Shown: positions 6,201-39,300 of the stretch, piece by piece | How positions within the stretch are numbered: the stretch's first letter is position 1 | Layout: each line of letters starts with the position of its first letter | From: Nymphaea colorata | Taxonomy: Eukaryota > Streptophyta > Magnoliopsida > Nymphaeales > Nymphaeaceae | NCBI RefSeq assembly: GCF_008831285.2 | Contig: NC_045138.2 | Coordinates: forward strand, 16,525,934-16,589,933 | Direction of reading: 5' to 3' | DNA: 64,000 nucleotides | The notes under the pieces: generated by a model | What the model saw: only the letters and a program-made list of their open reading frames with translations | What the model was told of the DNA's origin: nothing | The model's database searches: none | Position numbers and translations under genes: made by a program

Positions 6201-6851
6201 TAAGTGAACTGCTATCAGCTGTTCATCCTTCTATTTAGGCCAATTTGCTAAACCTTACATTTTTTCATTGAATGTTATAACACATCAGCTTATATGAAAA
6301 TTAAGTGCCAGCATGCAGCTGCTGTCTATTGTTGTCAGTTCGTATGGCAGGTTATCCAACTGTTATGTCCTTGAAATTCATATGATGAATGTAACATTTT
6401 GCCACAAGGCAGATGTACATGACGTACTAGTAAATCCCCTTATATGCATGAGCTGCGTGGTGTTTGTTAATCCTAGCTTTGTAGTTTGGTGTAAAGAGAC
6501 GACGTGATACTGTGCATGCAGGTAGCTGAACGTGCCCTTTTCCTATGGAACAATGATCACATTGTCAGCTTGATAGCTCAAAACCGTAATGTGATTTTCC
6601 CAATTATCTTCGAAGCCCTGGAGAAGAACATACAATCTCATTGGAATCAGGCTGTTCATGGGTTGACTCTGAACGTCCGGAAGATGTTTGCAGAGATGGA
6701 CAATGACCTATTACTTGAATGCCAACGCCAGTATCTAGAGAAAGAGGCCAAGGCAAAGGCATTACAAGAGAAGCGTGAATTGATATGGGAAAGACTTGAA
6801 GCAGAGGTGGCAGCCAAAGCAGGAAGTGGGGAAATGGTGCTGGTAAGTTAA
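254..6851 (+). CDS. PP2A regulatory subunit B' (B56 family)
   Basis: Two coding exons, 254-1447 and 6522-6851, give 507 residues, a usual length for plant B' subunits. The junction is phase 0 (CAG|GTATCC ... CATGCAG|GTAGCT) and joins HFQ to [11 protein letters not shown], a hallmark stretch of the family. A low-complexity Ser/Asn/Thr N-terminus (about residues 1-75) is followed by the B56 HEAT-like core, with the recognisable stretches [62 protein letters not shown] and [16 protein letters not shown]. The C-terminus is Lys/Glu/Ala-rich and probably helical. In the family, B' subunits bind the PP2A A/C core and set substrate choice and location. The isoform class was not decided. The 5,074-bp intron carries repeat DNA. 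Confidence 0.95.
4128..4880. repeat. Repeat in the PP2A B' intron with TATCG palindromes
   Basis: Between 4140 and 4325 short palindromes of the form GTATCG(T/C)(A/G)CGATAC recur at least five times, and a related degenerate block in the opposite sense lies at about 4815-4860. The interior is AT-rich with no coding capacity. The arrangement suggests a degraded non-autonomous DNA element with sub-repetitive inverted ends. I could not fix the ends or a target duplication, so the family is left open. Confidence 0.45.
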
Positions 6852-8239: not shown

Positions 8240-8335
8240 AGAACCATAAACCGACTGTTTGAGCTACTGGACAATGGAAAGCAACTTCGTGGAGCCACAG
8301 GGCCACTTGAACTCCTAGATGCATGTATATGCCTT
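8240..8335 (-). pseudogene. Relic of a polygalacturonase last exon
   Basis: About 95 bp on the minus strand match the 3' part of exon 4 of PG-A (8688-8785): the counterparts of [16 protein letters not shown] and the Ser-rich tail RRLM are recognisable but diverged. No other exon of this copy is present nearby. The strand matches PG-A, so it looks like the leftover of a former tandem sixth copy or of an unequal exchange. It lies about 350 bp beyond the PG-A stop codon. Confidence 0.75.
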
Positions 8336-8685: not shown

Positions 8686-10420
8686 CTACAGGCGATCAAA
8701 GCTCATAAGCCTACGGTTTGAGCTACTGGATGATTGAAGGCAACTTGGTGGAGACACAGAGCCACTTGAACTCCCAAATGCATGATCACACGAGGCCTTA
8801 GCAGGATTGCCCTTGTATGTCAGCTGCACGTTAGACATCTTGATCCCTTGGCATGGCGCGCTAGCACTGCATGAGAAATCGACCGCCACTTGGGTCGCTG
8901 ATGTTCCCTTGATGTTGTTGTATGTCACTTGCGAGATCTTAACCCCAGAGTTCTGTATGACAACCAAGATGTTAAGCAGTTAATACCCGTTGAATTGCAA
9001 TATCTATGAACTGTTCTAGGATAATGATCTCTTTAAGTAATTGTCTAAGTGTAAAGAGGCAGTATAAATTCTTCAAACAGTTGTTCATATCGGAAAAAAG
9101 CCTCTGTAAGTGGTTTTTGAACAATTTTAAGTTGGAAAAGCCCCTGAGAGTTCTAACTAGAAGTTGTGAATTGGTGTAAGCAGCATCACCTGATTGGAGC
9201 ATCCTTGATTGTCAGGGCAATAGTGCTGGTCTATGATGATGGGGTTGTCGACATTGTTCATCGTGGCGCCGTCGAAGACGATTCCTTTAGCAAAGCCAGT
9301 GCTGCTTTTAGCCCATGATTTTATTCTTAGGCCATTGGTTGATCCTGTGAATACCACGTTCTTCACCGTAACATTTTGCACTCCAGCCTCTTGGGCATCT
9401 TTTCCTAAGCTACCAACACTATCATCAAAATAAAACCATCTAGTTAGCAAAATTATACTGTAAAGATGCAAGAGAATGCACACAGGCACATACACACAAA
9501 GCATATTTTGTGTAGGCACATGATTTGTTGAATTATATGTAGTTTACCTGATTCCATGTCCAGGTCCACAAGCTATTTTCTCAATCCACAAGTTTTGGGT
9601 CCCTGAACCAATAGATATGCAGTCATCTCCCGTCCCGATATTGGAATTCGTGATCGTGACACCTGTTGATTGCTCGACATGTATGCCATCTGTATTGGGA
9701 CTTGTGCTCGAGGCCGTGATCTTCAGTCCATCAACTTTCACATTGGTGCATGTGTCAATGACAATGTGAAAGAGCTCACTATTGACAGAGGTGAGGCCTG
9801 TCAATGTAATGTCCCTTGAATTGCTGAACACTAACGACTGCAAATAAGGAACACAATGTTAATTCACATGTACGAGAACTGTCATATGGATATGACTTAC
9901 ATAGAAGTCTTTTCTAAGAAATTAATCACAGCAACTAACTTATGTAGTCTGTCTATTGAAAACACAAGGCCTACATCTCACTTACTCTTGCTCCATAAGG
10001 ACAGCTTCCTTTGCCAGCCTTACAAGCCCAGAGTGCTGAACCCTTGCCATCTATGTACCCTCCTTGGAAAGACAATCCTTGAACATTGTTGAACTTCATG
10101 ATATAGCCTGCAGCACCATACAAATTATAGTCGGGCGATGCGACCAGGTTGCCGTCGACCTGCACGATGATCTTGCTGTTTTTGCATGGGCCGGAGAATA
10201 GGGTAGGATGCAACAAGAACTGGCCGGAGGGCACATAGAAGGTTCCGGCCTGTGATGCCGAACAGACAGCAAGCCATGCTTTTTGAAAAGCAGCACTATT
10301 GTCGGCCACTCCATCTGCTTTGGCACCATAGCTCATTACGCTAAAGGTTGCTCCATTCACCAAATGGATCAAAAGGGCCAGACTAAGAAAAAAAGAAAGC
10401 AAGAAACTGTTGTGAGCCAT
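8686..10420 (-). CDS. Exopolygalacturonase (GH28), copy PG-A
   Basis: Four exons on the minus strand: 10420-9986, 9837-9548, 9418-9190, 8952-8686. They encode 406 residues with intron phases 0, 2, 0. The start was chosen at MAHNSF because a typical secretion signal follows (residues 1-23, ending HLVNG); the open frame upstream is leader. GH28 signatures are complete: SPNTDG (Asp195), GDDC (Asp216/Asp217), GPGHGISVGSLG (His239) and RIK (273-275). The family hydrolyses galacturonic acid from pectin in the cell wall, and this N-terminal and Cys-rich C-terminal layout fits the exo-acting, pollen-type clade. It is the most diverged of the five copies here (for example Gly at residue 213 where the others have Lys) and lies outside the palindrome. 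Confidence 0.93.
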
Positions 10421-10522: not shown

Positions 10523-10672
10523 TATATATAGAGTTGTATCCTGCAACAGACGAACACTTGAGAGCTTGTTCTTATCTTATTGTTCAGATAATTAGCATTA
10601 GAAAATAGAATCATGTTTCACAATAACTTGTTCTTTGTGTTTAGTGGTAGAATCTTGTTTCACAATAACTTG
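10523..10672 (-). promoter_or_regulatory. PG-A promoter: TATA box and paired 24-bp elements
   Basis: A TATATATA box lies at 10523-10530, about 100 bp before the start codon. Upstream are two direct copies of an element whose core is ATGTTTCACAATAACTTG, at 10607-10630 and 10649-10672 (the second has one change). The same pair occurs in front of all five polygalacturonase genes of the window, which suggests a shared regulatory site. The binding factor is unknown. Confidence 0.7.
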
Positions 10673-12581: not shown

Positions 12582-13190
12582 GCTCTCACTGAGGCCATGA
12601 AATACTATACATAAGATACATTTTACGAGGGACATTAAGGTAGCTTTATCAGTTAGGACACTAGAATAGGTTAGAATTAATCTCCTTAGGCATTACTTTT
12701 ATTTATATTCAAGATTTTTTTTTTTGTTGAGAAATATCATATATAAAGTTGATGACATTCATTTGTGTTCGCATGGTTGGGTTGAATGTGGATTGAGTAA
12801 TTCCATTGTTATTTCTATTTCTCCACTCTGTTTTAGATAGAAATAATTCACAGAAACAAGTTTTTTCATGCAGATGTGCGCATACACAATCCTACTACAT
12901 GAATTTTCCGCTTGGAGAGAATAAAAAGGGTTAAGATGAATTTGGCTCGTGGTGGGTCTGGAGGACGGATTCGATTCCTCGTGCCTGATCGTTTGTATAA
13001 ATCAGCAGTTTTAATCGCCTGGTTGCTGATGGAAGGCTGCAAGGATTGGGTATTTCAATGGCTTCTATGTGCAAGTTGTGCAAGAGAGGATGTGAAGAAC
13101 AGACCCACAAAGTGTTTACTTGCCCTGTTCCCAAATCCATGCATAATTTGATATGAATGGTAAGATTTCTCTCCCTCCTATGTTTTTACT
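12582..13190 (+). mobile_element. LINE-derived segment, copy 1 (zf-RVT-like relic)
   Basis: About 600 bp downstream of PG-B, convergent with it. A frame at about 13,058-13,148 reads MASMCKLCKRGCEEQTH followed by VFTCPVP, a C-x2-C...H-x4-C pattern like the zinc-binding domain at the end of plant LINE reverse transcriptases; stops interrupt it upstream. Two more copies lie at the palindrome centre. It looks like an old LINE 3' fragment duplicated together with the PG genes rather than inserted three times. Confidence 0.6.
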
Positions 13191-13456
13191 TTGTTTTTCT
13201 TTTATGCCTTTCTTTTTTCAATGATTAAGCATGGACGTCAAATGATAAACAAAATATTTATTAACATTGAGTACAAATGAATTCCATTAGCCAAAACTCT
13301 TAATATAAAACAAAAACAATAAATTACTGCATGTCTTTATTATTCCTTTAAGAAAGAATGTGTGTAGTAGCATTCATTATTACAAGACCACCAACTTTCT
13401 TTATTTTTCACCTACTACAAGAAACCAATATATAAAAGAATACATATGCTTGGTGA

Positions 13457-15220
13457 TCAATTTCTAGAAAGACCAAGGCCCAAAAGCCTGCGATTGGAGG
13501 CACTTGACTTAAGGCAGCTTGGAGGAGACACAGAACCACTCGAACTCCCAAATGCATGATCACACGAGGCCTTAGCAGGATTGCCCTTGTATGTCAGCTG
13601 CACATTAGACATCTTGATCCCTTGGCACGGCGCACTAGCACTGCATGAGAAATCCACCGCCACTTGCGTCGCTGACGTTCCCTTGATGTTGTTGTATGTC
13701 ACTTGCGAGATCTTAACCCCAGAGTTCTGTATGACAACAAAGATCGAACATCTTAAACAACTAGAGGTTGCTCATGAATTACTAACACTAAGTGCAAGAG
13801 GCAGTGTGTGTATGTATGTATATATACATGTATATATATAATGATGTTCAGAGTAGCTTTTAAATAATTTAAAGTTGGATAAGACCCCAAAAGATCTAAA
13901 AGTTATGAATTGGTGAATGCATCAGCACCTGATTAGAGCATCCTTGGTTGTTAGGGCAGTAGTGCTGGTCTATGATGATGGGGTTGGCGACATTGTTCAT
14001 CGTCGCACCATCGAACACGATTCCTTTGGCGAAACCTGTGCTGCTTCTAGCCCATGATTTTATTCTTAGGCCATTGGTAGACCCAGTGAACACCACATCT
14101 TTTACTGTTACATTCTGCACCCCAGCTTCATTGGCAGTCTTCCCTAAGCTCCCAACACTGCCAACAATATCAAATTAACCGTCCATCATATTCAAACTTA
14201 CACGTGAAGCTGCATGTGAATGCACACACACATGCAAACACCCACAAACAAAGCATATTTTGTTTAGGCACATGATTTGTTGAATTATATGTGCAACTCA
14301 TGCGTTCAGTCTTTCAATTACCTGATTCCATGTCCAGGTCCACAAGCTATTTTCTCAATCCACAAGTTTTGGGTTCCTGAACCAATAGATATGCAGTCAT
14401 CTCCTGTCTTGATGTTCGAATTTGTAATTGTAACGCCCGTCGATTGCTCCACGTGGATACCATCTGTATTGGGGCTTGTGCTTGATGCCGTGATCTTCAG
14501 TCCATCAACTTTCACATTGGTGCATGTGTCAATGACAATGTGAAAGAGCTCACTATTGACAGAGGTGAGGCCTGTCAATGTAATGTCCCTTGAATTGCTG
14601 AACACTAACGACTGCAAATAAGAAACACAATGTTAATTCATATGTACAAGAACTGTCATATAGATATGACTTACATATATAGTTGATAACTAAGTTTATC
14701 ATATAAGTCATTTCTAAGAAATTGATAATAGCGACTAACTTGTGTAGTCTGTCTATTGAAGACACAAGGCCTACATCTCACTTACTCTTGCTCCATAGGG
14801 ACAGTTTCCTTTGCCAGCCTTACAAGCCCAGAGTGCTGAACCCTTTCCATCTATGTACCCTCCTTGGAAAGACAATCCTTTCACATTGTTGAACTTCATG
14901 ATGTAGCCTGCGGCACCATACAATTTATAGTCGGTCGATGCGATCAGGTTGCCGTCGACCTGCACGATGATCTTGCTATTTTTGCATGGACCAGAAAAGA
15001 GGGCAGGGTGCAACAAGAATTGGCCCGAGGGCACGTATAACGTTGCGGCCTGTGATGCGGAACAAGCCGCAGACCATGCTTTTAGAAAAGCGGCACTATT
15101 GTCGGTCACTCCATCTGCTTTGGCACCATAGCTCATTATGCTAAAGGTTGATCCATTCACCAAATGGAGAAAGGGCAAAGTGATGACAAGGGAAAGCAAG
15201 AAACTTTTGTGAGCCATCAT
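13457..15220 (-). CDS. Exopolygalacturonase (GH28), copy PG-B
   Basis: Exons on the minus strand: 15220-14786, 14611-14322, 14157-13929, 13726-13457; 407 residues, phases 0, 2, 0. The start is a double Met (MMAHKSF) before a signal peptide ending HLVNG. Catalytic motifs SPNTDG, GDDC, GPGHGISVGSLG and RIK are all present, so it is predicted to be active on pectin in the wall. It is head-to-head with PG-C. Its closest relative is PG-E in the opposite arm: the two proteins differ at only five positions (three in the signal peptide, two in the last five residues). TATA lies about 105 bp upstream. Confidence 0.94.
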
Positions 15221-15324
15221 AGGAGGCGGAGCGGAACTAAGGCTTGTTAGAGAAAGCTCTGTGTTTCTGTAGTTTCTGAGAAGGGTGATGTTGTTGATGC
15301 AACTGAGATGTGCTTTCGATGCCA

Positions 15325-15466
15325 ATTTATAGAGCAGTAAGCACTTTATCCTCTTAATCCTTATGGCTTATGCTATTATTCAGGTCGTTTAGTTAAAGAC
15401 AGAATCATGTTTCACAATAACTTGAGTTTTGTGATTACAGATAGAATCATGTTTCACAATAACTTG
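15325..15466 (-). promoter_or_regulatory. PG-B promoter: TATA box and paired elements
   Basis: TATAAAT lies at 15325-15331. Two copies of the ATGTTTCACAATAACTTG-containing element lie at 15401-15424 and 15443-15466, directly repeated, 70-140 bp upstream of the TATA box, the same spacing as in PG-E. Confidence 0.7.
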
Positions 15467-16504
15467 TCATTTATGTTCTTATCTAGTTAGAATTTCTGTC
15501 GAAGTGGTTATTGTGTGTTTTACATCTATTTGGCAGGAATATTCTCCAGAGTCATGTCTCAAAATTTGACCATACCAGACACGGCATCACCTAGCTAAAG
15601 GAAGCCTAAGTGACCGATATAATTAAGTTCGGTAAACCCAATTCACATGCGATTTTGTTTGATTTGTGAGGTTATAGTTTCTCGTTAAATTTGCTCGATC
15701 TCGAGAAACAAATATCTTGCCGGCCGTCTATTTAACGATGACGTGACAAAAAAGAAGCGGCTAAATTGAAGTTATGAAATTGCATAAAGAATTCTTTTAC
15801 GAGATTTGACCACACGGAATATTAGTCCAAATCGGATCGACAACCAGATATGTCTCTGATTCATTTACATGCTTACATGTATTCAAGTGAATCTGGTTAC
15901 GTGCATACTTTGTATACAAAAAATTATGCACCGACATATGTAATGATCAAAATACCCTTGACCAGTAAGAAAAGGAGCCCCTACAAAGACAAAAAAGATG
16001 TTGGAAAAGTTTAAAATTCAAAATAAATTCTTTTTAAAAATTCTCAAAATACCTCAACTCTCCATTTTTATGGTGCATATCTGGTGCATGCAACTCGATT
16101 GATCGACACTCAACGTACGCAGAGCACAGCCCTCACCGAAAAGCGGTTCATAGTTGGCTAGTGTCAATAGAAGTCCACGAGGGTGTGAAAAAAAAAGTGG
16201 TCAAGTTGAAGACAGTCGTAAATAGACGGCCAGCTAGCGATTTGTTTCTCGAGATCGAGCAATTTTAACGAGAAACTATAACCTCACAAATCAACACGCT
16301 ACCTATATTGGTCATTTAGACCTTATTTAGCAAGGTGATGTGAAATCTTCACGTGCATCTATCACCCTGAATTTCCACTGAGCCGTGTCTGGTATGAACA
16401 AATTTGGGGACATGAAGACTCTGGAGAATATTCATGTCAAATAGATTGAGAACACCATAATAACCACTTAGAGCGAAATACTAACAAGATAAGAACGTAA
16501 ATGA
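15467..16504. other. Head-to-head spacer between PG-B and PG-C
   Basis: The two sides of this spacer are inverted copies of each other (for example the block with TTTCTCGAGATCGAGC at about 16240 and its complement at about 15695), as expected if B and C arose by an inverted duplication. About 420 bp at 15769-16186 have no counterpart in the D-E spacer. They show no terminal repeats or coding capacity, so insertion here and deletion there are both possible. Confidence 0.75.
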
Positions 16505-17028
16505 CAAGTTATTGTGAAACATGATTCCATATATCTCTAAGCAGAAAAACTCAAGTTATTGTGAAACATAATTCTATCTTTAACCAAACGAACTGAATAG
16601 TAGCATAATCCATAAGGAAGAAGAGTACAGGGTGCTTACAAGTCTGCTATCCTTTGACTTATGCCATTAAAGCCGCACCACATATATGATCCCTCTCGAG
16701 ATCATAGAAAACATAAACGCGTCCTCGTCCAAGACCGTCCATCAAAGAAAATAAACTGCAAGCTTAATCTCAAAGGGTAGCTATCGGGGAAGATCCCATC
16801 CTTGACCACAAAAGAAGTACCACTTACATATGATTTATAGTGCAGTAATTCTTTTTGAGACAAATATTCATGTGTTTGTCAACACATATATTAATGGACA
16901 AGTGATTGTCAAACGTGATTCTCTATCTCGTTCGTAATCAAATGAACAAGGTTTGCATTTGTTCCCACAACATCTGAAGATGAAGACGACAAACTATGCA
17001 TCATCACCACTAAGAACCTCTATATATA
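16505..17028 (+). promoter_or_regulatory. PG-C promoter: distal paired elements and TATA box
   Basis: The paired elements lie at 16505-16528 and 16552-16575 (in complement), but TATATATA is at 17021-17028. The pair therefore sits roughly 450-515 bp upstream of TATA, against 70-140 bp in PG-B/E. Similarity to the B/E promoters stops near 16,640, so about 380 bp of proximal promoter is different in PG-C and PG-D. Confidence 0.65.
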
Positions 17029-17149
17029 GCAACCACAAGGAGGCTTCATAGTGCAACACAACCACACAGTTATCGCCACCATCAGAAACTACAGTACTGA
17101 AACACAAAGGGGCGTTTCTAAACCTGCTTCAGTTGGATCATTTCTTATC

Positions 17150-18876
17150 ATGGCTCACAAGTGCAGTTTCTTGCTTTCTCTTCTTGTTACTTTAGTCTTT
17201 CTCCAATTGGTGAATGGAGCAACCTTTAGCATTATGAGCTATGGTGCTAAAGCAGATGGAGTGACCGATAACAGTGGTGCTCTTAGAAAAGCATGGTCTG
17301 CTGTATGCTCGGCATCACAGCCCGCAACCCTGTACGTGCCTTCTGGCCAATTCTTGCTGCATCCAACTCTCTTCTCTGGCCCGTGTGCAAATAGCAAGAT
17401 CGTCGTGCAGGTCGACGGCAACCTGATCGCATCGACCGACTATAACTTGTATGGTGCCGCAGGCTACATCATGAAGTTCAACAATGTGAAAGGATTGTCT
17501 TTCCAAGGAGGGTACATAGATGGAAAGGGTTCAGCACTGTGGACTTGTAAGGCTGGCAAAGGAAAGTGTCCTTATGGAGCAAGCGTAAGTGAGATCTAGG
17601 ATTATGTTTTAAATGGACAATCTAAATAAATAAGTTCATTGCCTTTAGTTTCTTAGAAATGGTTCCCATATCTCATTCATTTTCCTAATGAACTTAGTTA
17701 TCAATATCGTTATTTATTGTTTTTTTGACGATATACTTGTGTGAATTCTCATGCACATGCAACATCTTGTCTCTTAAATATTGCAGTCGTTAGTGTTCAT
17801 CAACTCAAGGGACATTACGTTGACAGGCCTCACATCGGTTAATAGTGAACTCTTTCACATCGTCATTGACACATGCATCAATGTGAAAGTTGATGGACTG
17901 AAGATCACGGCATCGAGCACAAGCCCCAACACAGATGGTATCCACGTGGAGCAATCGACGGGCGTTACAATCACAAATTCGAACATCAAGACAGGAGATG
18001 ACTGCATATCTATTGGTTCAGGAACCCAAAACTTGTGGATTGAGAAAATAGCTTGTGGACCTGGACATGGAATCAGGTAATTAAAAGACTGAACAAAAGA
18101 GCAGCACATATAATCAGGACAAAGTATGCTTTGTTTGTGTTTGTATGCAGTGTGTGTGCATTCACTTGTAACAGTGTTAATTTGATATTGTTGACAGTGT
18201 CGGGAGCTTAGGGAAGGCTGCCAATGAAGCTGGGGTGCAGAATGTAACAGTGAAGAATGTGATGTTCAGTGGGTCTACCAATGGCCTAAGAATAAAATCA
18301 TGGGCAAGAAGCAGCACTGGTTTCGCCAAAGGAATCGTGTTCGATGGCGCGACGATGAACAATGTCGCCAACCCCATCATCATAGACCAGCACTACTGCC
18401 CTAACAACCAAGGATGCACTAATCAGGTGCTGCTGCATTCACCAATTCATAACTTTTACATCTTTTGGGGTCTTATCGAACTTAAAATTATGTAAAAGCT
18501 ATTCTGAAGATCAGTATACACACACACACTGCCTCTTGCACTTAATGTTAGTAATTCATGAACAACCTCTAGTTGGCTAACATGATCGGTCTTTGTTGTC
18601 ATACAGAACTCTGGGGTTAAGATCTCGCAAGTGACATACAACAACATCAAGGGAACGTCAGCGACGCAAGTGGCGGTGGATTTCTCATGCAGTGCTAGCG
18701 TACCGTGCCAAGGGATCAAAATGTCTAATGTGCAGCTGACGTACAAGGGCCAGCCTGCTAAGGCCTCATGTGATCATGCATTTGGGAGTTCGAGTGGTTC
18801 TGTGTCTCCACCAAGCTGCCTTAAGTCAAGTGCATCCAATCGCAGGCTTTTGGGCCTTGGTCTCTCTAGAAATTGA
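17150..18876 (+). CDS. Exopolygalacturonase (GH28), copy PG-C
   Basis: Exons 17150-17584, 17787-18076, 18198-18426, 18607-18876; 407 residues, phases 0, 2, 0. It starts at MAHKCSF with a signal peptide ending QLVNG. GH28 motifs SPNTDG, GDDC, GPGHGISVGSLG and RIK are intact. It is head-to-head with PG-B and tail-to-tail with PG-D. Its protein differs from PG-D at seven positions in my comparison (V/A and K/Q near the N-terminus, A/T and S/G in exon 1, T/S at the end of exon 3, V/A and N/S in exon 4), and it is less similar to PG-B. The open frame upstream of 17150 has no ATG of its own. Confidence 0.94.
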
Positions 18877-19159
18877 TCACCAAGCATATGTATTATTTTA
18901 TATATTGGTTTTTAGTAGTAGGTGAACATAAAGAAAGTTGGTGGTCTTGTAATAATGAATACTACTACACACATTCTTTCTCAAAAGAATAATAAAGACA
19001 TGCAGTGATTTGTTGTTTGTTTCATATTAAGAGTCTTGGCTTATAAGCTAATGGAATTCTTTTGTACTCAATTTTAATAAATCTTTGGTTTATCATTTTA
19101 CTTCTATGCCTAATCATTGAAAAAAGATAGGCATGAAAGAAAAAAAAAAAAAGCCATAG

Positions 19160-19687
19160 GAGGGATCGAAATCTTACCATTCATATCAAATTACGCTTGG
19201 ATTTGGGAACAGGGCAAGTAAACACTATGTGGGTCTGTTCTTCACATCCCCTCTTGTACAACTTGCACATGGAAGCCATTGAAATACCCAATCCTTGCAG
19301 CCTTCCATCCGCAACCGGCCGATTAAAACTGCTGATACACGAGGAATCGAATCCGTCCTCCAGACCCACCATGAGCGAATTCAACTTAACCCCTTTTATT
19401 CTCTCCACGCGGCAAATTCATGTAGTAGGAATGTGTATGCGCACATATGCATGAAAATAATTGTTTCTGTGAATTATTTCTATCTAAAACAGAGTGGAGA
19501 AATAGAAATAACAATAGAAGTACTCAATCCACATTCAATCCAACCGTGCGAACACAAATGAATCCCATCAATTTATATATGATATTTCTCAAAAAAAAAT
19601 CTTGAATATAAATAAAAGTAATGCCTAAGGAAATTAATTCTAACCTATTCCAGTGTCCTAACTGATAAAGCTACCCTAATTTCCCTC
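19160..19687 (-). mobile_element. LINE-derived segment, copy 2
   Basis: Inverted copy of the 12.6-13.2 kb segment, downstream of PG-C. On the minus strand a frame reads ADGRLQGLGISMASMC, then KRGCEEQTH and VFTCPVP, a pattern typical of the zinc-binding region after the reverse transcriptase of plant LINEs (one Cys of the motif is Tyr here). It forms the left half of the palindrome centre. Confidence 0.6.
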
Positions 19688-19727
19688 TCACTCGGGCCAT
19701 GAAATACTCTACATAAGATCCATGTAG

Positions 19728-20290
19728 GAGGGAAATTAAGGTAGCTTTATCAGTTAGGACACTAGAATATGTTAGAACTAATCTCCTTAGGCATTACTTT
19801 TATTTCTATTCAAGATTATTTATTTGTTTTTTTGTTGAGAAATATCATATATAAAATTGATGACATTCATTTGTGTTCACATGGTTGGGTTGAATGTTGA
19901 TTGAGTAATTCTATTTTTATTTCTATTTCTCCACTCTGTTTTAGATATAAATAATTCACAGAAACAAGTATTTTCATGCAGATGTGCCCATACAGATTCC
20001 TACTACATGAATTTGCCGCGTGGAGAGAATACAAGAGGTTAAGATGAATTGGCTCGTGGTGGGTCTGGAGGACGGATTCGATTCCTCGTGCCTGCTGGTT
20101 TGTATATATCAGCAATTTTAATCGTCTGGTTACTGATGGAAGGCTACAAGGATTGGGAATTTCAATGGCTTCCGTGTGCAAGTTGTGCAAGAGAGGATGT
20201 GAAGAACAGACCCACAAAGTGTTTACTTGCCCTGTTCCCAAATCCATGGGTAATTTGATATGAATGGTAAGATTTCGATCCCTCCTATGG
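19728..20290 (+). mobile_element. LINE-derived segment, copy 3
   Basis: Same orientation as copy 1 and mirror image of copy 2, separated from copy 2 by about 40 bp that still match the left flank of copy 1. It lies downstream of PG-D and convergent with it. The zf-RVT-like pattern (CKLCKRGCEEQTHKVFTC) is present. Confidence 0.6.
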
Positions 20291-20567
20291 CTTTTTTTTT
20301 TTTTCTTTCATGCCTATCTTTTTTCAATGATTAGGCATAGAAGTAAAATGATAAACCAAAGATTTATTAAAATTGAGTACAAAAGAATTCCATTAGCTTA
20401 TAAGCCAAGACTCTTAATATGAAACAAACAACAAATCACTGCATGTCTTTATTATTCTTTTGAGAAAGAATGTGTGTAGTAGTATTCATTATTACAAGAC
20501 CACCAACTTTCTTTATGTTCACCTACTACTAAAAACCAATATATAAAATAATACATATGCTTGGTGA

Positions 20568-20954
20568 TCAATTTCTAGAGAGACCAAGGCCCAAAAGCCT
20601 GCGACTGGAGGCACTTGACTTTAGGCAGCTTGGTGGAGACACAGAGCCACTTGAACTCCCAAATGCATGATCACATGAGGCTTTAGCAGGCTGGCCCTTG
20701 TATGTCAGCTGCACGTTAGACATCTTGATCCCTTGGCACGGCGCGCTAGCGCTGCATGAGAAATCGACCGCCACTTGGGTCGCTGATGTTCCCTTGATGT
20801 TGTTATATGTCACTTGCGAGATCTTCACCCCCGAGTTCTGTGTGACAACAAAGATCGATCATGTTAAACAACTAGAGGTTGTTCATGAATTACTAACATC
20901 TATGAACAATTTCAGGATATTGAACTCTTAAGTTGTCTAAGTGCAAGAGGCAGT

Positions 20955-21016
<62 letters not shown>

Positions 21017-22384
21017 AACTGATCTTGAGAGTAGCTTTTACATAATTTTAAGTTGGATAAGACCCCAAAAGATCTGAAAGTTATGAATTCGTGAATGCAG
21101 CAGCACCTGATTAGAGCATCCTTGGTTGTTAGGGCAGTAGTGCTGGTCTATGATGATGGGGTTGGCGACATTGTTCATCGTCGCGCCATCGAACACGATT
21201 CCTTTGGCGAAACCAGTGCTGCTTCTTGCCCATGATTTTATTCTTAGGCCATTGGTAGACCCACTGAACATCACATTCTTCACTGTTACATTCTGCACCC
21301 CAGCTTCATTGGCAGCCTTCCCTAAGCTCCCGACACTGTCAACAATATCAAATTAACACTGTTACATGTGAATGCATACACACTGCATACAAACACAAAC
21401 AAAGCATACTTTGTCCTGATTATATGTGCTGCTCTTTTGTTCAGTCTTTTAATTACCTGATTCCATGTCCAGGTCCACAAGCTATTTTCTCAATCCACAA
21501 GTTTTGGGTTCCTGAACCAATAGATATGCAGTCATCTCCTGTCTTGATATTAGAATTTGTGATTGTAACGCCCGTCGATTGCTCCACGTGGATACCATCT
21601 GTGTTGGGGCTTGTGCTCGATGCCGTGATCTTCAGTCCATCAACTTTCACATTGATGCATGTATCAATGACGATGTGAAAGAGTTCACTATTAACCGAGG
21701 TGAGGCCTGTCAACGTAATGTCCCTTGAGTTGATGAACACTAACGACTGCAATATTTAAGAGACAAGATGTTGCATGTGTATGAGAATTCTCACATGTAT
21801 ATCGTCAAAAAAAACAATAAATAACGATATTGATAACTAAGTTTGTTAGGAAAATGAATGAGATATTGGAACCACTTCTAAGAAACCAAAGGCAATGAAC
21901 TTATTTATTTAGATTGTCCATTTAAAACATAATCCTAGATCTCACTTACGCTTGCTCCATAAGGACACTTTCCTTTGCCAGCCTTACAAGTCCACAGTGC
22001 TGAACCCTTTCCATCTATGTACCCTCCTTGGAAAGACAACCCTTTAACATTGTTGAACTTCATGATGTAGCCTGCGGCACCATACAAGTTATAGTCGGTC
22101 GATGCGATCAGGTTGCCGTCGACCTGCACGACAATCTTGCCATTTGTGCATGGGCCAGAGAAGAGAGTTGGATGCAGCAAGAATTGGCCAGAAGGCACGT
22201 ACAGGGTTGCGGGCTGTGATGCCGAGCATACAGCAGACCATGCTTTTCTAAGAGCACCACTGTTATCGGTCACTCCATCTGCTTGAGCACCATAGCTCAT
22301 AATGCTAAAGGTTGCTCCATTCACCAATTGGAGAAAGGCTAAAGTAACAAGAAGAGAAAGCAAGAAACTGCACTTGTGAGCCAT
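20568..22384 (-). CDS. Exopolygalacturonase (GH28), copy PG-D
   Basis: Exons on the minus strand: 22384-21950, 21746-21457, 21335-21107, 20837-20568; 407 residues, phases 0, 2, 0. Signal peptide MAHKCSF...QLVNG; GH28 motifs SPNTDG, GDDC, GPGHGISVGSLG and RIK are all kept. It is the mirror partner of PG-C: exon 2 gives an identical protein segment, with seven differences overall. It is head-to-head with PG-E. Intron 3 carries a TG/TA microsatellite that is much shorter in PG-C. Role as for the family: exo-cleavage of homogalacturonan in the wall. Confidence 0.94.
20958..21017. repeat. (TG)n(TA)n microsatellite in PG-D intron 3
   Basis: About 18 TG units followed by about 11 TA units. The mirror position in PG-C (about 18,512-18,530) has only a short CA run, so this is an arm-specific expansion. 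Confidence 0.9.
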
Positions 22385-22505
22385 GATAAGAAATGATCCA
22401 ACTGAAGCAGGTTTAGAAACGCCCCTTTGTGTTTCAGTACTGTAGTTTCTGATGGTGGCGATAACTGTGTGGTTGTGTTGCACTATGAAGCCTCCTTGTG
22501 GTTGC

Positions 22506-23029
22506 TATATATAGAGGTTCTTAGTGGTGATGATGCATAGTTTGTCGTCTTCATCTTCAGATGTTGTGGGAACAAATGCAAACCTTGTTCATTTGATTAC
22601 GAACGAGATAGAGAATCACGTTTGACAATCACTTGTCCATTAATATATGTGTTGACAAACACATGAATATTTGTCTCAAAAAGAATTACTGCACTATAAA
22701 TCATATGTAAGTGGTACTTCTTTTGTGGTCAAGGATGGGATCTTCCCCGATAGCTACCCTTTGAGATTAAGCTTGCAGTTTATTTTCTTTGATGGACGGT
22801 CTTGGACGAGGACGCGTTTATGTTTTCTATGATCTCGAGAGGGATCATATATGTGGTGCGGCTTTAATGGCATAAGTCAAAGGATAGCAGACTTGTAAGC
22901 ACCCTGTACTCTTCTTCCTTATGGATTATGCTACTATTCAGTTCGTTTGGTTAAAGATAGAATTATGTTTCACAATAACTTGAGTTTTTCTGCTTAGAGA
23001 TATATGGAATCATGTTTCACAATAACTTG
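22506..23029 (-). promoter_or_regulatory. PG-D promoter: TATA box and distal paired elements
   Basis: TATATATA lies at 22506-22513, 122 bp before the start codon exactly as in PG-C. The paired elements lie at 22959-22982 and 23006-23029, again about 450-515 bp upstream of TATA. Confidence 0.65.
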
Positions 23030-23647
23030 TCATTTACGTTCTTATCTTGTTAGTATTTCGCTCTAAGTGGTTATTATGGTGTTCTCAATCTATTTGACAT
23101 GAATATTCTCCAGAGTCTTCATGTCCCCAAATTTGTTCATACCAGACACGGCTCAGTGGAAATTCAGGGTGATAGATGCACGTGAAGATTTCACATCACC
23201 TTGCTAAATAAGGTCTAAATGACCAATATAGGTAGCGTGTTGATTTGTGAGGTTATAGTTTCTCGTTAAAATTGCTCGATCTCGAGAAACAAATCGCTAG
23301 CCGACCGTGTATTTACGACTATGTCTTCAACTTGACCACTTTTTTTTTCGTCAATTTAGCCGCTTCTTTTTTGTCACATCATCATTAAACAGACGGCTGG
23401 CTGGCTATTTGTTTCTCGAGATCAAGCAAATTTAACGAGAACCTCACAAATCAATCAAAATCGCATGTGAATTGGGTCTACCGAACTTAATCATATCGGT
23501 CATTTAGGCTCCATTTAGCTAGGTGATGCCGTGTCTGTTGCGGCCAAATTTTGAGACATGACTCTAGAGAATATTCCTGCCAAATAGATGCAAAACACCA
23601 TAATAACCACTTAGAGAGAAATTCTAACTAGATAAGAACATAAATGA
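23030..23647. other. Head-to-head spacer between PG-D and PG-E
   Basis: A compact version of the B-C spacer. Its halves are inverted copies around about 23,340, with GATCTCGAGAAACAAAT near 23,277 and its complement near 23,409. It lacks the 420 bp found in the B-C spacer. It marks the join of the older head-to-head duplication. Confidence 0.75.
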
Positions 23648-23788
23648 CAAGTTATTGTGAAACATGATTCTATCTGTAATCACAAAACTCAAGTTATTGT
23701 GAAACATGATTCTGTCTTTAACTAAACGACCTGAATAATAGCATAAGCCATAAGGATTAAAGGATAGAGTGCTTACTACTCTATAAAT
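23648..23788 (+). promoter_or_regulatory. PG-E promoter: paired elements and TATA box
   Basis: Paired elements (complement of ATGTTTCACAATAACTTG) lie at 23648-23671 and 23690-23713, and TATAAAT at 23782-23788, about 103 bp before the start codon. Layout is the same as PG-B. Confidence 0.7.
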
Positions 23789-23890
23789 TGGCATCGAAAG
23801 CATCTAGGTTGCATCAACAACATCACCCTTCTCAGAAACTACAGAAACACAGAGTTTTCTCTCACAAACCTTAGTTCCGCTCCGCCTGCT

Positions 23891-25661
23891 ATGATGGCTC
23901 ACAACAGTGTCTTGCTTTCCCTTCTCATTACTTTGCCCTTTCTCCATTTGGTGAATGGATCAACCTTTAGCATAATGAGCTATGGTGCCAAAGCAGATGG
24001 AGTGACCGACAATAGTGCCGCTTTTCTAAAAGCATGGTCTGCGGCTTGTTCCGCATCACAGGCCGCAACGTTATACGTGCCCTCCGGCCAATTCTTGTTG
24101 CACCCTGCCCTCTTTTCTGGTCCATGCAAAAACAGCAAGATCATCGTGCAGGTCGACGGCAACTTGATCGCATCAACCGACTATAAATTGTATGGTGCCG
24201 CAGGCTACATCATGAAGTTCAACAATGTGAAAGGATTGTCTTTCCAGGGAGGGTACATAGATGGAAAGGGATCAGCACTATGGGCTTGTAAGGCTGGCAA
24301 AGGAAACTGTCCCTATGGAGCAAGAGTAAGTGACATGTAGGCCTTGTGTCTTCAATAGACAGACTACACAAGTTAGTTGCTATTATCAATTTCTTAGAAA
24401 TGATTTCTATGATAAACTTAGTTATCAACTATATATGTAAGTCATATCCATAATCCATATGACAGTTCTTGTACATATGAATTAACATTGTGTTTCTTAT
24501 TTGCAGTCGTTAGTGTTCAGCAATTCAAGGGACATTACATTGACAGGCCTCACCTCTGTCAATAGTGAGCTCTTTCACATTGTCATTGACACATGCACCA
24601 ATGTGAAAGTTGATGGACTGAAGATCACGGCATCAAGCACAAGCCCCAATACAGATGGTATCCACGTGGAGCAATCGACGGGCGTTACAATTACAAATTC
24701 GAACATCAAGACAGGAGATGACTGCATATCTATTGGTTCAGGAACCCAAAACTTGTGGATTGAGAAAATAGCTTGTGGACCTGGACATGGAATCAGGTAA
24801 TTGAAAGACTGAACGCATGAGTTGCACATATAATTCAACAAATCATGTGCCTAAACAAAATATGCTTTGTTTGTGGGTGTTTGCATGTGTGTGTGCATTC
24901 ACATGCAGCTTCACGTGTAAGTTTGAATATGATGGACGGTTAATTTGATATTGTTGGCAGTGTTGGGAGCTTAGGGAAGACTGCCAATGAAGCTGGGGTG
25001 CAGAATGTAACAGTAAAAGATGTGGTGTTCACTGGGTCTACCAATGGCCTAAGAATAAAATCATGGGCTAGAAGCAGCACAGGTTTCGCCAAAGGAATCG
25101 TGTTCGATGGTGCGACGATGAACAATGTCGCCAACCCCATCATCATAGACCAGCACTACTGCCCTAACAACCAAGGATGCTCTAATCAGGTGCTGATGCA
25201 TTCACCAATTCATAACTTTTAGATCTTTTGGGGTCTTATCCAACTTTAAATTATTTAAAAGCTACTCTGAACATCATTATATATATACATGTATATATAC
25301 ATACATACACACACTGCCTCTTGCACTTAGTGTTAGTAATTCATGAGCAACCTCTAGTTGTTTAAGATGTTCGATCTTTGTTGTCATACAGAACTCTGGG
25401 GTTAAGATCTCGCAAGTGACATACAACAACATCAAGGGAACGTCAGCGACGCAAGTGGCGGTGGATTTCTCATGCAGTGCTAGCGCGCCATGCCAAGGGA
25501 TCAAGATGTCTAACGTGCAGCTGACATACAAGGGCAATCCTGCTAAGGCCTCGTGTGATCATGCATTTGGGAGTTCAAGTGGCTCTGTGTCTCCACCAAG
25601 TTGCCTTAAGTCAAGTGCCTCCAATCGCAGGCTTTTGGGCCTTACTCTTTCTGCAAATTGA
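23891..25661 (+). CDS. Exopolygalacturonase (GH28), copy PG-E
   Basis: Exons 23891-24325, 24507-24796, 24961-25189, 25392-25661; 407 residues, phases 0, 2, 0. It starts MMAHNSV with a signal peptide ending HLVNG. The catalytic motifs of GH28 are intact (SPNTDG, GDDC, GPGHGISVGSLG, RIK). It is the mirror partner of PG-B, identical in exons 2 and 3 at protein level. The last residues read TLSAN instead of the GLSRN shared by B, C and D, and the following 3' UTR is equally distinct, so the right edge of the near-identical arm falls inside this gene's last exon. Confidence 0.94.
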
Positions 25662-26917
25662 TTGCCCTGCGTGCCTACATATTCTTTGATTGGTTTTAAG
25701 TACAATGTAAGCATTTATAAAGAAAGTTGATGGTCATGAAATAATGTATTAATGTGTACACACATGTTCTTTCTTAGAAGTAAAAATAAAGCAGTGATTT
25801 GTTATTTGTTCTGTATTTAGCACTTGAAGAGAGAAACAGGGACAAAGAGAGCTGGAGATATTATGCCAATGATTTTACCCTGAACAACTTTCAAAGAGCA
25901 TTTTTGATACCTCTGGAGATAAATATTTGTTCTTGGTGGATTTTGGAAATCGATTCCATATATGTTGGAGACGGAGAGAGACCATGAATATTATCCGGTG
26001 ACCGAGCAATTTAGCCATTTTTAGTTGGTTCTTCAAAAATTCAACCACAAACTACAAAATAACCGAAATATTATATTCTAAATATACAAATGTTATCATG
26101 GATTACCATGCCAAGATCGTTATAATAATTAACGGCAGGGGCCTTAAATTACCTTTTTCATACAATTATGTTTTTCTTGAATAAAATTGTAGCAGAATAA
26201 GGAAAAGAACATTGATATGAACATTCATGTTTTTTGAACAATATCAAAACTTTAAATCCTTTTCTGGTTACCACCAATATCTTTAAGTTTTAAAATTTTT
26301 TTATTAAAAAGCTATAAATAATGACATTTTAATATTCATTTCTTTGTATATCCGTCGATGCAGGCGATTTCAGCCCCTTTCGGCGATTATTTGGAAAAGG
26401 CCGTTTCCAACTCCTAGTTTTCATTTCCTTGCTGTTGCGAATTTGAACTTGAATAGACAAGAATGAACAATTCGGAAACTTAGAATCATGTTTCCCGTTT
26501 TACTACACAAAGTTTTTTCCTCATGAAAGAAAGGAAAAATGGGAAAATATTCAAAATTTGAAAATAGAAAATAATTATGGTAAATAAAGTAATCCCAGAA
26601 GTCTCCAGAACCCAATTAAAATCAAATACGCTTAAAGTAAATTAACTACAAACGCAGGAAATGGAGAGATGAAAGTGACTTACAGCCTACAGGTGGCGAT
26701 TGATGCAAAAAAGTAGAATTGGCAAAAACAAGAAAACCAAGTCGAGAGGCGGTGCCGCACCTGGAGAAACGAAAGTCTTTGCAACTCTCTATCTCTTATC
26801 CGTTTTAGAGCTTTGCAATTTGCGTCTTAGCCTCAGATGACCGAAATGAAGATTTTGTGACGATGGCTCTTTTGTTTGAGTAGGGAAGGAGGGTGCGGGA
26901 GCGTGTCTTGCGGGCAT
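25662..26917. other. Intergenic, PG-E 3' flank to next gene
   Basis: To about 25,820 it holds a diverged PG 3' UTR (AATAAA-like signal near 25,787). The rest is AT-rich spacer and the promoter/leader of the next gene. No further gene was supported. Confidence 0.5.
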
Positions 26918-33663: not shown

Positions 33664-34118
33664 TATGAGCCAATGGAGACTCTCTCTTTCCCAATGCATT
33701 TTCCATTTTATCAGCTCTCTCTCTCTTCTTGACTTGACTAAGTGTCTAAGTCTCTTTTTGCCGTGCACCAGTTTCCTTGATCACCTATGCCATGACACAG
33801 TGACTATGAATGAGACGACTTTTGTTTTCTTTTGCAAAGCTGAATAGGGATTTTCTTTCAAGTTTGTTCTTCATAAAAAAAAAAAGAAGAAGAATTTTAA
33901 TAAGATTGTATTAAGATAACTGTCTCCAGTTTGTGTCCATGGTGAGCTTTTCTCATCCGTGATGACCGATCCTGAATTTGTTCTTAGTTTGCATCAAATA
34001 ATGCAGAGTACTAGGTGAGCAAGAGGTGTATTTCATCCTACCACTAGATTGAGAATCTAAACCCCCACCCTTCTCCCCATTCTCCCAGGGACCAAAAGAT
34101 TTGGTGGGGAATAAGCCT
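33664..34118. repeat. Direct repeat, copy 1
   Basis: About 450 bp related to 34297-34728. Both begin with CCAATGGAGACTCTCTCT, include TTTTGTTTTCTTTTGCAAAG and an A-rich run, and end with a CTCCCA(G/A)GGACCAAA(A/G)GAT block. Copies are moderately diverged, so the duplication is not recent. Confidence 0.8.
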
Positions 34119-34296: not shown

Positions 34297-34728
34297 ATGA
34301 ACCAATGGAGACTCTCTCTCTCTCTCTCGTATGCTTTTTCCTTCAGCGGTAACTTGTCTACAATTTTCTCAATGGCACCAGTCTTCTTGATCACCGAACT
34401 CATGAATGAGACTATTTTTGTTTTCTTTTGCAAAGCAGGATTTTCCTTTAACTTTGTTCTTCATAAAAAAAAAAAAAAAAGAATTTCCTAATCCATAACT
34501 CAAAATTGTTGAGATTTAATAAGATTGTATGAAGATAACAGTCTCCATTTTGTGTCCATGGTGAGCTTTTCTCATCCGTGACAACCGACCCTGAATTTGT
34601 TCTTAGTTTGGATCAAAAGATCTAATGTAGAGTATTGAGATGTATTTCATCCTATCATTCAGCTGAAAATTGAAATCACCACCCTTCCCCCTATTCTCCC
34701 AAGGACCAAAGGATCTGGTGGGGAGTAG
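34297..34728. repeat. Direct repeat, copy 2
   Basis: Partner of 33664-34118, same orientation. The two are separated by about 180 bp that include a GC-rich patch with GGGCCGGCCCGAG-like words. Confidence 0.8.
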
Positions 34729-36347: not shown

Positions 36348-39300
36348 ATGGGGACACCTATGATGTGGGTGTTGCTCATTGTGGTGGTTTTGAGCTCTCC
36401 CATGGCCTCCAATGGAGGAACCACAAGTAGGTTCGTTAGAAAGCTTGGGGCATCCAAAGATATGCCTCTTGATAGTGATGTGTTCAGGGTACCGCCTGGC
36501 TACAATGCTCCCCAACAGGTTATTTCTTTTCCTTTTCTCTTTCACTTTGTTAGTCTTTCTTTTAGATTTTCACCAATCTACCGACTTCAAATTCTGTTCG
36601 TGTCTCCAGAAACTAAGAGTCGGTAATTCGCATTTTTGACACAGTGAGACTTTTACTGCTGTGTTAAAATTTAAGTTCATGGTTGATCTTAACAGGTACA
36701 TATAACACAAGGAGATCATAATGGTACGGGAGTGATAGTTTCATGGGTAACAACGTCTGAGCCAGGATCAAGCACCGTGTTGTATGGTACTGCTGAGCAC
36801 AAGCGAAAATTCAGGGCAGAAGGTTCCGTTACTTCCTACAAGTTCTATAACTACACTTCAGGGTTCATTCACCACTGTCATCTCAATGGCTTGGATGTGA
36901 GTAGCTTCTTTTCATTTTCTTTGGGCTTTTCGTTCTGAATTGACTGGTGTCTCGCTTCTTTCATGTGATTCTAAGAATTTTGTAGTATGGTCATGTTGTT
37001 TGAGAGGAATCGATCGTCTTCTCTTATAATAAGGAGCCCTGGGATTTCCTATGCTTCACGTTTCTCTGATCAGTAGATATGTATGGATGGTTCCCTGCTT
37101 TGTTCACAGGTTTATATGTCGCTTGAGATTGAACTCATGGTTTTGAATCTCGAGAAAAGTGCTATGTAGCAAATACGTAGCAGAAAAAGTTATCGTTTTA
37201 GACACTTTTTTATCAGGCTCAATGGATAGTAAGTAACCAATGACTAGTTTCAGAATGGGAATCTAAATGAAAGTTATGCTATTGGTACAGTATGATACTG
37301 AGTATTTCTATGAGGTGGGAATAGGGCACACAAGACGTCGGTTCTCATTCAAGACTCCTCCAAAAGTTGGTCCCGATGTTCCATATACTTTTGGCCTCAT
37401 AGGTAAGATTCCTTTTTATATGCATTATATCGTTTTTTCATTTCTTATCATGATTCATGCTATACTGTTGTTCTTTCCCTTTTTGGTCTCAGAAAAAAAA
37501 AAACTTCCTGAACCATTCATGTCAGTTTCCGATCCTTTCTTTGGTATTTCCTCCTGAGCATGGATTTTGCGTCTGTGTCAAGTGGACCCATTAAGTATGA
37601 CATGTATGACCTTGGTTTTCTGATGGTCTGTTATCCTCTGATTGTTCCATATATGACTCGTCGTCCCACTTGCAAATATCTTTGAACTTCCACAAAGTTA
37701 GCATTTTTTGGGGTCATGACCAGTTAAGTTGTATGAACTTACTTGTTTCAGCTTCACAAGTCAAATAGTTGTGGATAACTTCTTTGGGATCATATGCACT
37801 TCAGAGAAAATGAAAGATCTACTTCTACTTGGTTTTTCTTCAAGAAGCATCTGATTTAATGATTTCTTCTGTTTTGTCCCCGTGACTTTTTTTGTCAAAT
37901 GCGTGCTGGGGTGTGGCTTGACCTTGCTTTTGCTAATTTATATGTAGGGGACCTGGGACAGAGTTTTGATTCCAATACCACACTTTCGCACTATGAATCA
38001 ATTAAGAAGGGGCAGACTGTGTTGTTTGTGGGAGATCTTTCTTATGCAGACAACTATCCTAACCATGATAATGTCAGATGGGATACATGGGGAAGGTTCA
38101 TTGAGAGAAATGCCGCTTATCAACCTTGGATATGGACTGCGGGGAACCATGAAATAGACTTTGCTCCCGAATTGGTAATTTTTATGCCAACATAATGGCA
38201 TTACTGCATTGATAATGGAATTATATTATTTTAAAGATTCAACTGACATTTTTTCTTGCACATAATATGTCTCTTAGTGGACATTATAATTTCTTTCTTC
38301 AGCCTTAGATAAAAGGCTGTGACTTCCTTTCCTGCAACAATATAACATGAGCTATTTGAAAGAAAAAAGCTGATTTTTTTTTTCTCTTAAGAGGCAGGAA
38401 CTGCTGTTGATGTGTTGGTTCGTATGCATATATGCCTGCAATAGCATGCATCAACTGATAATATTGTGTAAACATATGCTCAGTCATATGATATGCCTAT
38501 GTGCACATAGAGACATGGACATAGACAGGCTTGCACACAAATGCACATATACATATCCATGCTTGGGATATGATGAGCTTTATGCCTTCCCATGTTTATG
38601 CAACCAAGCAAACCTTTTTTCTTCGTTTTGTTATAAACTTCTCATATTATCATTTGGATTCTTAGCTTAAAATTATGTGAATCAAACAATATATATAGAT
38701 CTAGATATATTTTTCTCCACTTTTGTTTTTGTCTTTCTGCTAATCACACTTTAAGCTCTTTTTGTCTTCTGTATTTTCTCATCTTGAATTTTCTGTATGC
38801 TGAACAGTATCTCTGGCTCACCCAAAACACATGCTAAATTTGAACTATCATTTCGACAATCTTCTAAGGCCTTTTTTGTAACCTAGTATCAACTAGATGT
38901 TCCTTCAATGTACTATGCCATTTCTGAACTTGAACAATTATATCATGTTATTTTCCTTTCTTGAAAGGGCGAATATTATAGGAAAATAAAATATTTTAAA
39001 TATTCACTTTCAGTTCATCCCTCAATGCATTGCACCATTTGAGTTATATTGCAACAGATTTGGTCTTTGAAATGTCTAGATAAACTAGATCATTAACCGC
39101 TGCAATTCTCTTACCAGGGTGAAACAGAACCTTTCAAGCCATACCTTCATCGTTACCATGTACCCTACAAATCATCTGGTAGCACATCCCCACTTTGGTA
39201 TTCAATCAAGCGTGCATCAGCATACATCATTGTTCTTAGTTCATATTCAGCTTATGGCAAGTATCCTTTTTCTTGTCTCCAGACATTTTGTAATAATTTA

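Follow-up and report, generated by a model that had tools for sequence, protein, structure and literature searches.

Duplication–inverted triplication–duplication (DUP-TRP/INV-DUP) rearrangements have been described at the human PLP1 locus, where a first junction (Jct1) lies in inverted repeats, a second (Jct2) is formed by microhomology or end joining, and triplications can be as short as 254 bp (PMC4352052); in a published table of second junctions, microhomology is mostly 0 to 4 bp long (PMC10766186). The inverted triplications in the papers cited here come from human disease and from yeast under selection. In plants, clustered polygalacturonase genes are commonplace (PMC1794546), floral and pollen expression has been reported for some clade C polygalacturonases (PMC6102391), and a Medicago study, whose gene set includes polygalacturonases, proposes that four copies came to be misplaced by gene conversion (PMC3517903). 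Here we analyze a 64,000-nucleotide window of Nymphaea colorata (NC_045138.2, positions 16,525,934 to 16,589,933, forward strand), to which all positions below refer unless another contig is named. The window contains a palindrome carrying four polygalacturonase (PG) genes of family GH28, PG-B to PG-E (hereafter B to E), and a fifth such gene, PG-A (hereafter A), outside it. On the sequence comparisons reported below, the best explanation of this locus, and a probable one, is that a later event with the DUP-TRP/INV-DUP pattern acted on an old head-to-head gene pair, followed by gene conversion between the resulting arms.

Results

Self-BLAST of the window yielded three inverted matches, 13456-15769 / 25662-23351 (96.8% identity), 16187-18518 / 23349-21015 (98.4%) and 18545-20899 with itself (91.7%). 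Jointly they form a palindrome of approximately 12 kb from 13456 to 25662 with the gene order PG-B(-) C(+) D(-) E(+), and thereby confirm the nested palindrome described in an initial annotation of this DNA; the length and identity of the matches exclude a chance origin. A 40-bp loop separates the innermost complementary bases, so that the centre lies at 19707.5, the midpoint of the loop, in agreement with the earlier placement at about 19,707. Each half is a head-to-head pair, as had been proposed, and the pairs B/C and D/E have older inverted similarity (e.g. 15337-15589 / 16639-16379, 84%). The mirror symmetry is lost close to where the coding sequences of B and E stop, and arm identity is patchy, in that stretches diverged by 2-9% adjoin identical runs of 1027 and 963 bases. 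Among the gaps of at least 15 bp in the arm alignment, sequence confined to the left arm amounts to one block of 416 bp, and sequence confined to the right arm to 51, 38 and 16 bp. A transposon was considered as the source of the 416-bp block and rejected; a repeated target site was not seen by eye.

Palindromes are difficult to assemble, and the long tracts that are identical between the arms would be in keeping with an assembly artefact in which two haplotypes or mis-resolved copies were joined head-on. Such joining would give the same flank at both ends, whereas the outer left and right flanks differ; joined haplotypes would diverge fairly evenly, whereas divergence here alternates from 0 to 9%. 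Moreover, the 416-bp block is present in one arm only and the window has no N. A search of the assembly with 0.9 kb of gene B returned at least 21 matches, of which the five at 84-100% identity all belong to this locus and none listed elsewhere exceeds 76%, and a search with the DNA module found downstream of B, C and D located full copies in this locus only (genome-wide counts from both searches are lower bounds). Judged from these features of the sequence, it is unlikely that haplotypes were joined head-on, and we give an artefact of either kind very little credence.

We then counted, per segment of a five-way alignment of A to E, the sites at which B, C, D and E are split two against two. 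From the far promoter to intron 3, all 239 such sites joined B with E and C with D, with none joining B with C and D with E or B with D and C with E, which bears out the pairing of the initial annotation. The picture changed in exon 4, where the corresponding counts were 4, 3 and 0, and beyond the stop codons, where B, C and D are alike and E differs from all of them. B is thus E-like from the promoter into exon 4 and C/D-like from approximately 110 bp before the stop codon onward. Single exceptions surround this switch, termed junction 1 (Table 1), with a C-like site at 13628 before it and an E-like site at 13469 after it, and further E-like sites are scattered farther downstream. The protein tails read GLGLSRN in B, C and D, and GLTLSAN in E.

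The DNA behind B, C and D is a module of 0.81-0.88 kb, which includes a relic resembling a reverse-transcriptase zinc-binding domain (25.4 bits, short of the family's 27.5-bit threshold). Searched against all 407.8 Mb of the assembly, this module gave at least five matches, three of them full-length, all at this locus and in the orientations +, - and +; the other two were a fragment of 104 bp downstream of E and one of 40 bp on contig C9. With three full copies among at least five genome matches, a dispersed repeat was rejected as an identity for the module. For the DNA behind E, comparison within the window found no match farther right beyond 25820. The 40-bp loop at the centre, termed junction 2, is the outer end of the module of D and matches ~12586-12626 behind B in direct orientation; where the switch occurs, GAG is common to the inverted strand and the copy on the B side (3 bp; CTC/GAG). 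In both C and D an AATAAA lies approximately 115 bp past the stop codon, ahead of the shared centre.

The modules of B and D have the same orientation and their match starts at 12583/19685 by self-BLAST, as would be expected had the head-to-head pair been duplicated in tandem, perhaps with a later inversion of one pair via the paralogues. A tandem origin is difficult to reconcile with the site counts, in which none of the 239 sites between promoter and intron 3 groups B with D and C with E, and had one pair been inverted, C would be expected to have E-type downstream DNA, whereas it has the B/D type. We regard this course of events as highly improbable.

Divergence, expressed as the Kimura two-parameter distance (K80), fell into two classes. 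Across the old pair (B-C, E-D, B-D and E-C) it was 0.259-0.262 in upstream DNA and introns 1 and 2. For the second round, the three modules outside the C/D identical tract gave 0.059, 0.064 and 0.082, the upstream DNA of B and E 0.060, and the two most diverged C/D stretches 0.082 and 0.089. With values of 0.059-0.089 against 0.259-0.262, the second round is the younger of the two; the bootstrap ranges of the second-round values overlap, and the least exchanged parts of this round would fit a single age. The two rounds of inverted duplication put forward in the initial annotation thus stand, and they differ in age (K80 of ~0.26 and ~0.06-0.09), but the second did not double the pair symmetrically: a tail module of 0.83 kb is triplicated, B is chimeric, and the DNA downstream of E is unlike that of B.

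This asymmetry bears on the model of the initial annotation, namely two plain inverted duplications, in which a gene was doubled head to head and the pair then doubled symmetrically about 19.7 kb. Gene order, the pairing of B with E and of C with D, and the two age classes all agree with it. It predicts, however, that E is followed by the same DNA as B, whereas the module of B resembles those of C and D (K80 0.06-0.08) and the DNA behind E differs by 0.37-0.42 over 141 sites, after which no match was found. Since B and C differ by 0.26 in upstream DNA and introns 1 and 2 and the modules by 0.06-0.08, the modules do not suit the age of the first doubling unless further conversion is invoked. 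Two plain doublings appear improbable to us.

According to the favoured explanation, a DUP-TRP/INV-DUP event with subsequent arm conversion, the ancestor would have been an old head-to-head pair of a D-type (-) and an E-type (+) gene between today's left and right flanks. Copying from the left flank through the D-type tail would have switched within exon 4 to its inverted paralogue in the E-type gene (junction 1), and copying back over the pair would have produced B, with an E-type body and a D-type end, and C, of D-type. After passing the tail module of C, copying would have rejoined the original sequence at the 3-bp microhomology and left the 40-bp loop (junction 2), with the original D-E pair following. 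A fold-back at junction 2, followed by homologous repair at junction 1, would lead to the same product. Afterwards, the arms would have exchanged sequence by gene conversion, while purifying selection would have kept the genes open.

Copy number along this putative ancestor runs 1-2-3-2-1: one for the left flank; two for a segment of ~40 bp (12586-12626, 19688-19727); three for the module and the D-type gene end; two for the D-type body, the spacer and the E-type body; and one for the E-downstream DNA and the right flank. The locus shares further features with DUP-TRP/INV-DUP rearrangements, in that the middle triplicated copy is inverted (modules +, -, +), junction 1 lies inside exon 4 of oppositely oriented paralogues, and junction 2 shows little microhomology (3 bp, GAG, by comparison with the copy on the B side).

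A triplicated module with an inverted middle copy, as found, is also predicted by origin-dependent inverted-repeat amplification (ODIRA), which generates inverted triplications, and the 40-bp loop of junction 2 fits the interruptions of 40-80 bp reported at yeast ODIRA junctions (PMC10766186). ODIRA is a serious rival in which the loop length fits and the repeat length does not: the repeats are reported to be 5-6 bp (PMC10766186), compared with 3 bp (CTC/GAG) in the B-side junction copy. Repeats of 5-6 bp with a 40-80 bp interruption would be expected at both junctions, whereas the repeat at junction 2 has 3 bp and junction 1 has no loop, and a second rearrangement would be required at junction 1. 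We consider an ODIRA origin unlikely.

Later exchange between the arms is indicated by the distribution of identical bases. The longest identical runs, 1027 bp for B/E and 963 bp for C/D, compare with maxima of 400 and 415 bp in 5000 shuffles each, and all eight gene pairs tested were patchier than chance (p <= 0.0026), so that exchange is not limited to the arms. As a partial control, confined to gene bodies, we used a cluster of five related genes on contig C3, in which the longest run over ten pairs was 324 bp and three of the ten pairs reached p < 0.02 (1000 shuffles); the encoded proteins are 57-63% identical to B over most exons and 70-79% in the last. Long identical runs among diverged stretches therefore suggest later arm-to-arm gene conversion, and the identical stretches of the arms probably originated in this way after the second round. 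The control cluster itself (L009-L012, 19.636-19.666 Mb) has four genes on one strand and one on the other, which are mutually 92-97% identical over gene-sized matches.

Several observations count against a DUP-TRP/INV-DUP event with subsequent conversion. In intron 3, C is missing 38 bp that are kept in D and resembled by A; C would be expected to be the copy of D, so that a separate deletion or conversion is needed. At this site, one base at the joint of C differs from the B/E version, and the loss may be either a shared one, transferred by conversion, or an independent one. Another indel is needed because the D-E spacer lacks the 416 bp of the B-C spacer; later indels do exist. Two stretches fall below the 0.06-0.09 class, C/D with 0.019 over 17196-18417 and B/E with 0.044 over 14662-15769, and for these, both partly coding, constraint on coding sequence or partial conversion has to be assumed. 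A and E share a 144-bp identical run in exon 4, and a later A-E exchange there has likely blurred junction 1. Finally, assembly polishing could be an alternative source of the identical tracts.

All five gene models, A to E, have four exons, GT-AG introns, 406-407 codons for amino acids and the motifs NTDG, DDCI, GPGHG and RIK, and the earlier description of four open genes with catalytic motifs is therefore correct for B to E. The protein of B, the only one of the five submitted, matched Pfam Glyco_hydro_28 (PF00295) with E = 9.6e-91, and its top matches among solved structures were 8ikx, 7b7a and 7b8b (ADPG2). The ratio of nonsynonymous to synonymous substitution rates (dN/dS) was 0.08-0.15 in all ten pairs of A to E, which suggests purifying selection on these genes. 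By their family membership, B to E are likely polygalacturonases, predicted to comprise two promoter types with two copies of each. An array of (TG)18.5 lies at 20959-20995 in intron 3 of D and is far shorter in B, C and E.

Upstream of each of the five genes, two copies of a 23-bp element, GAATCATGTTTCACAATAACTTG (at most one mismatch), lie 19-24 bp apart, and a third copy with three mismatches precedes both C and D. Together this gives 12 matches, compared with 0 in 100 shuffles. Allowing up to five mismatches, the element was not found at 12 other GH28 loci (L001-L005, L009-L015), several of which are short and may not reach the promoter. C and D each have, between the element pair and the gene start, a block of approximately 390 bp (16651-17040 and 22494-22883) that is identical in the two genes and mostly without counterpart in B and E.

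Gene A differs from E at 11 of 148 positions in intron 1, compared with 53 of 147 from D, and lies on the strand of D. Closer to E in this intron but on D's strand, it may, as part of the speculative reading given in the Discussion, be the trace of an earlier round. A search with A and B as queries revealed no convincing remnant of a lost head-to-head partner of A between A and B (a single tblastn match, E = 6.1). At 8245-8325 lies a short remnant of the last exon of a GH28 gene, 85% identical to the end of gene A. Among the neighbouring open frames, 185-1645 and 6495-6848 match a PP2A B56 regulatory subunit, and 37863-38192 and 39389-39799 match a calcineurin-like phosphoesterase. A direct repeat of approximately 216 bp (33896-34110 and 34515-34724, 83% identity) was found by self-BLAST; Rfam and tRNA scans gave no matches.

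Table 1. Coordinates of genes, arms, junctions and repeated segments of the polygalacturonase locus.
Feature	Position	Strand	Remarks
PG-A	8686..10420	-	Fifth intact GH28 gene model, outside the palindrome; 87.5-89.8% coding-sequence identity to B-E
PG-B	13457..15217	-	Intact GH28 gene model, 406 aa; exons 14786-15217, 14322-14611, 13929-14157, 13457-13726; chimeric, E-type body and C/D-type end
PG-C	17150..18876	+	Intact GH28 gene model, 407 aa, D-type; exons 17150-17584, 17787-18076, 18198-18426, 18607-18876
PG-D	20568..22384	-	Intact GH28 gene model, 407 aa; exons 21950-22384, 21457-21746, 21107-21335, 20568-20837
PG-E	23894..25661	+	Intact GH28 gene model, 406 aa; exons 23894-24325, 24507-24796, 24961-25189, 25392-25661
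Palindrome, left arm	13456..19687		Self-BLAST, arm alignment, inspection of the centre
Palindrome, right arm	19728..25662		Self-BLAST, arm alignment, inspection of the centre
Central loop, 40 bp (junction 2)	19688..19727		Continues the module downstream of D; matches ~12586-12626 directly; 3-bp GAG microhomology at the switch
Junction 1 interval	13474..13565		PG-B exon 4, switch from E-like to C/D-like; informative sites
Downstream module, copy 1	12583..13456		Downstream of B, adjoining the unique left flank; contains zf-RVT-like relic at ~13001-13153
Downstream module, copy 2	18877..19687		Behind C, inverted, without the last 40 bp; sequence comparison
Downstream module, copy 3	19688..20567		Behind D, orientation as copy 1; sequence comparison
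DNA downstream of E	25662..25820		K80 0.37-0.42 to B, C and D over 141 sites
416-bp block of the B-C spacer	15770..16185		Without counterpart in the D-E spacer (around 23350); arm comparison
B/E identical tract, 1027 bp	13635..14661		Partner 24457-25483; putative gene conversion
C/D identical tract, 963 bp	16233..17195		Partner 23301-22339; putative gene conversion
C/D identical tract, 355 bp	18840..19194		Partner 20604-20250; possible conversion, alone within the shuffle range (maximum 415)
23-bp element pairs	10608-10672, 15402-15466, 16505-16574, 22960-23029, 23648-23712		At most one mismatch to GAATCATGTTTCACAATAACTTG

Discussion

If the palindrome did arise by a DUP-TRP/INV-DUP event, such an event would have persisted to a divergence of ~0.06-0.09 with both junctions readable and every gene model open, and the locus would offer a natural case for studying how head-to-head pairs seed duplication and how fast the arms of plant palindromes convert. 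One may speculate, with considerable doubt, that pairs of head-to-head paralogues stand ready as a substrate for DUP-TRP/INV-DUP events in the gene families of plants, and that every such event gives rise to a nested palindrome whose arms exchange sequence and which holds two promoter types of the enzyme in two copies each, with no sex chromosome needed.

A narrow literature search for inverted triplication in Arabidopsis returned no match, which is not proof of absence, and the locus is not described in the listed titles and abstracts on polygalacturonases with gene conversion or inverted duplication. DUP-TRP/INV-DUP itself is already known from human disease, and the present locus looks like an old plant example.

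The rearrangements of human PLP1 and MECP2 (PMC4352052) resemble this locus in that two junctions lead to four copy-number transitions with an inverted middle copy, and in that junction 1 lies in inverted repeats and junction 2 shows little microhomology. In contrast to these, the locus is from a plant, its inverted repeats are two gene paralogues, and its triplication spans only approximately 0.9 kb. With K80 at ~0.06-0.09 where exchange has been least, the event is also old, whereas those of the patients are recent. ODIRA at yeast SUL1 (PMC10766186; PMC4689423) likewise yields an inverted triplication with a loop of approximately 40 bp at one junction; here, the loop occurs at one junction only, with a 3-bp instead of a 5-6-bp repeat, and the other junction is in paralogous coding DNA.

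Among plant systems, the Arabidopsis VIM4-VIM2 locus (PMC13213937) also consists of paralogues in an inverted repeat, attributed to intrachromosomal inverted duplication and reshaped by recombination. It is a single pair and not a nested palindrome of four genes, and it yields silencing small RNAs in Cvi-0 (PMC13213937); C and D each carry an AATAAA before their shared centre. The likeness to ampliconic palindromes suggested in the initial annotation holds in one respect, as the long identical runs suggest arm-to-arm conversion. Similarly, the palindromes of the willow W chromosome (PMC7023750) bear genes and show evidence of conversion between their arms; there, two consecutive palindromes extend over 200 kb of a sex chromosome, compared with the 12 kb of the polygalacturonase palindrome of N. 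colorata.

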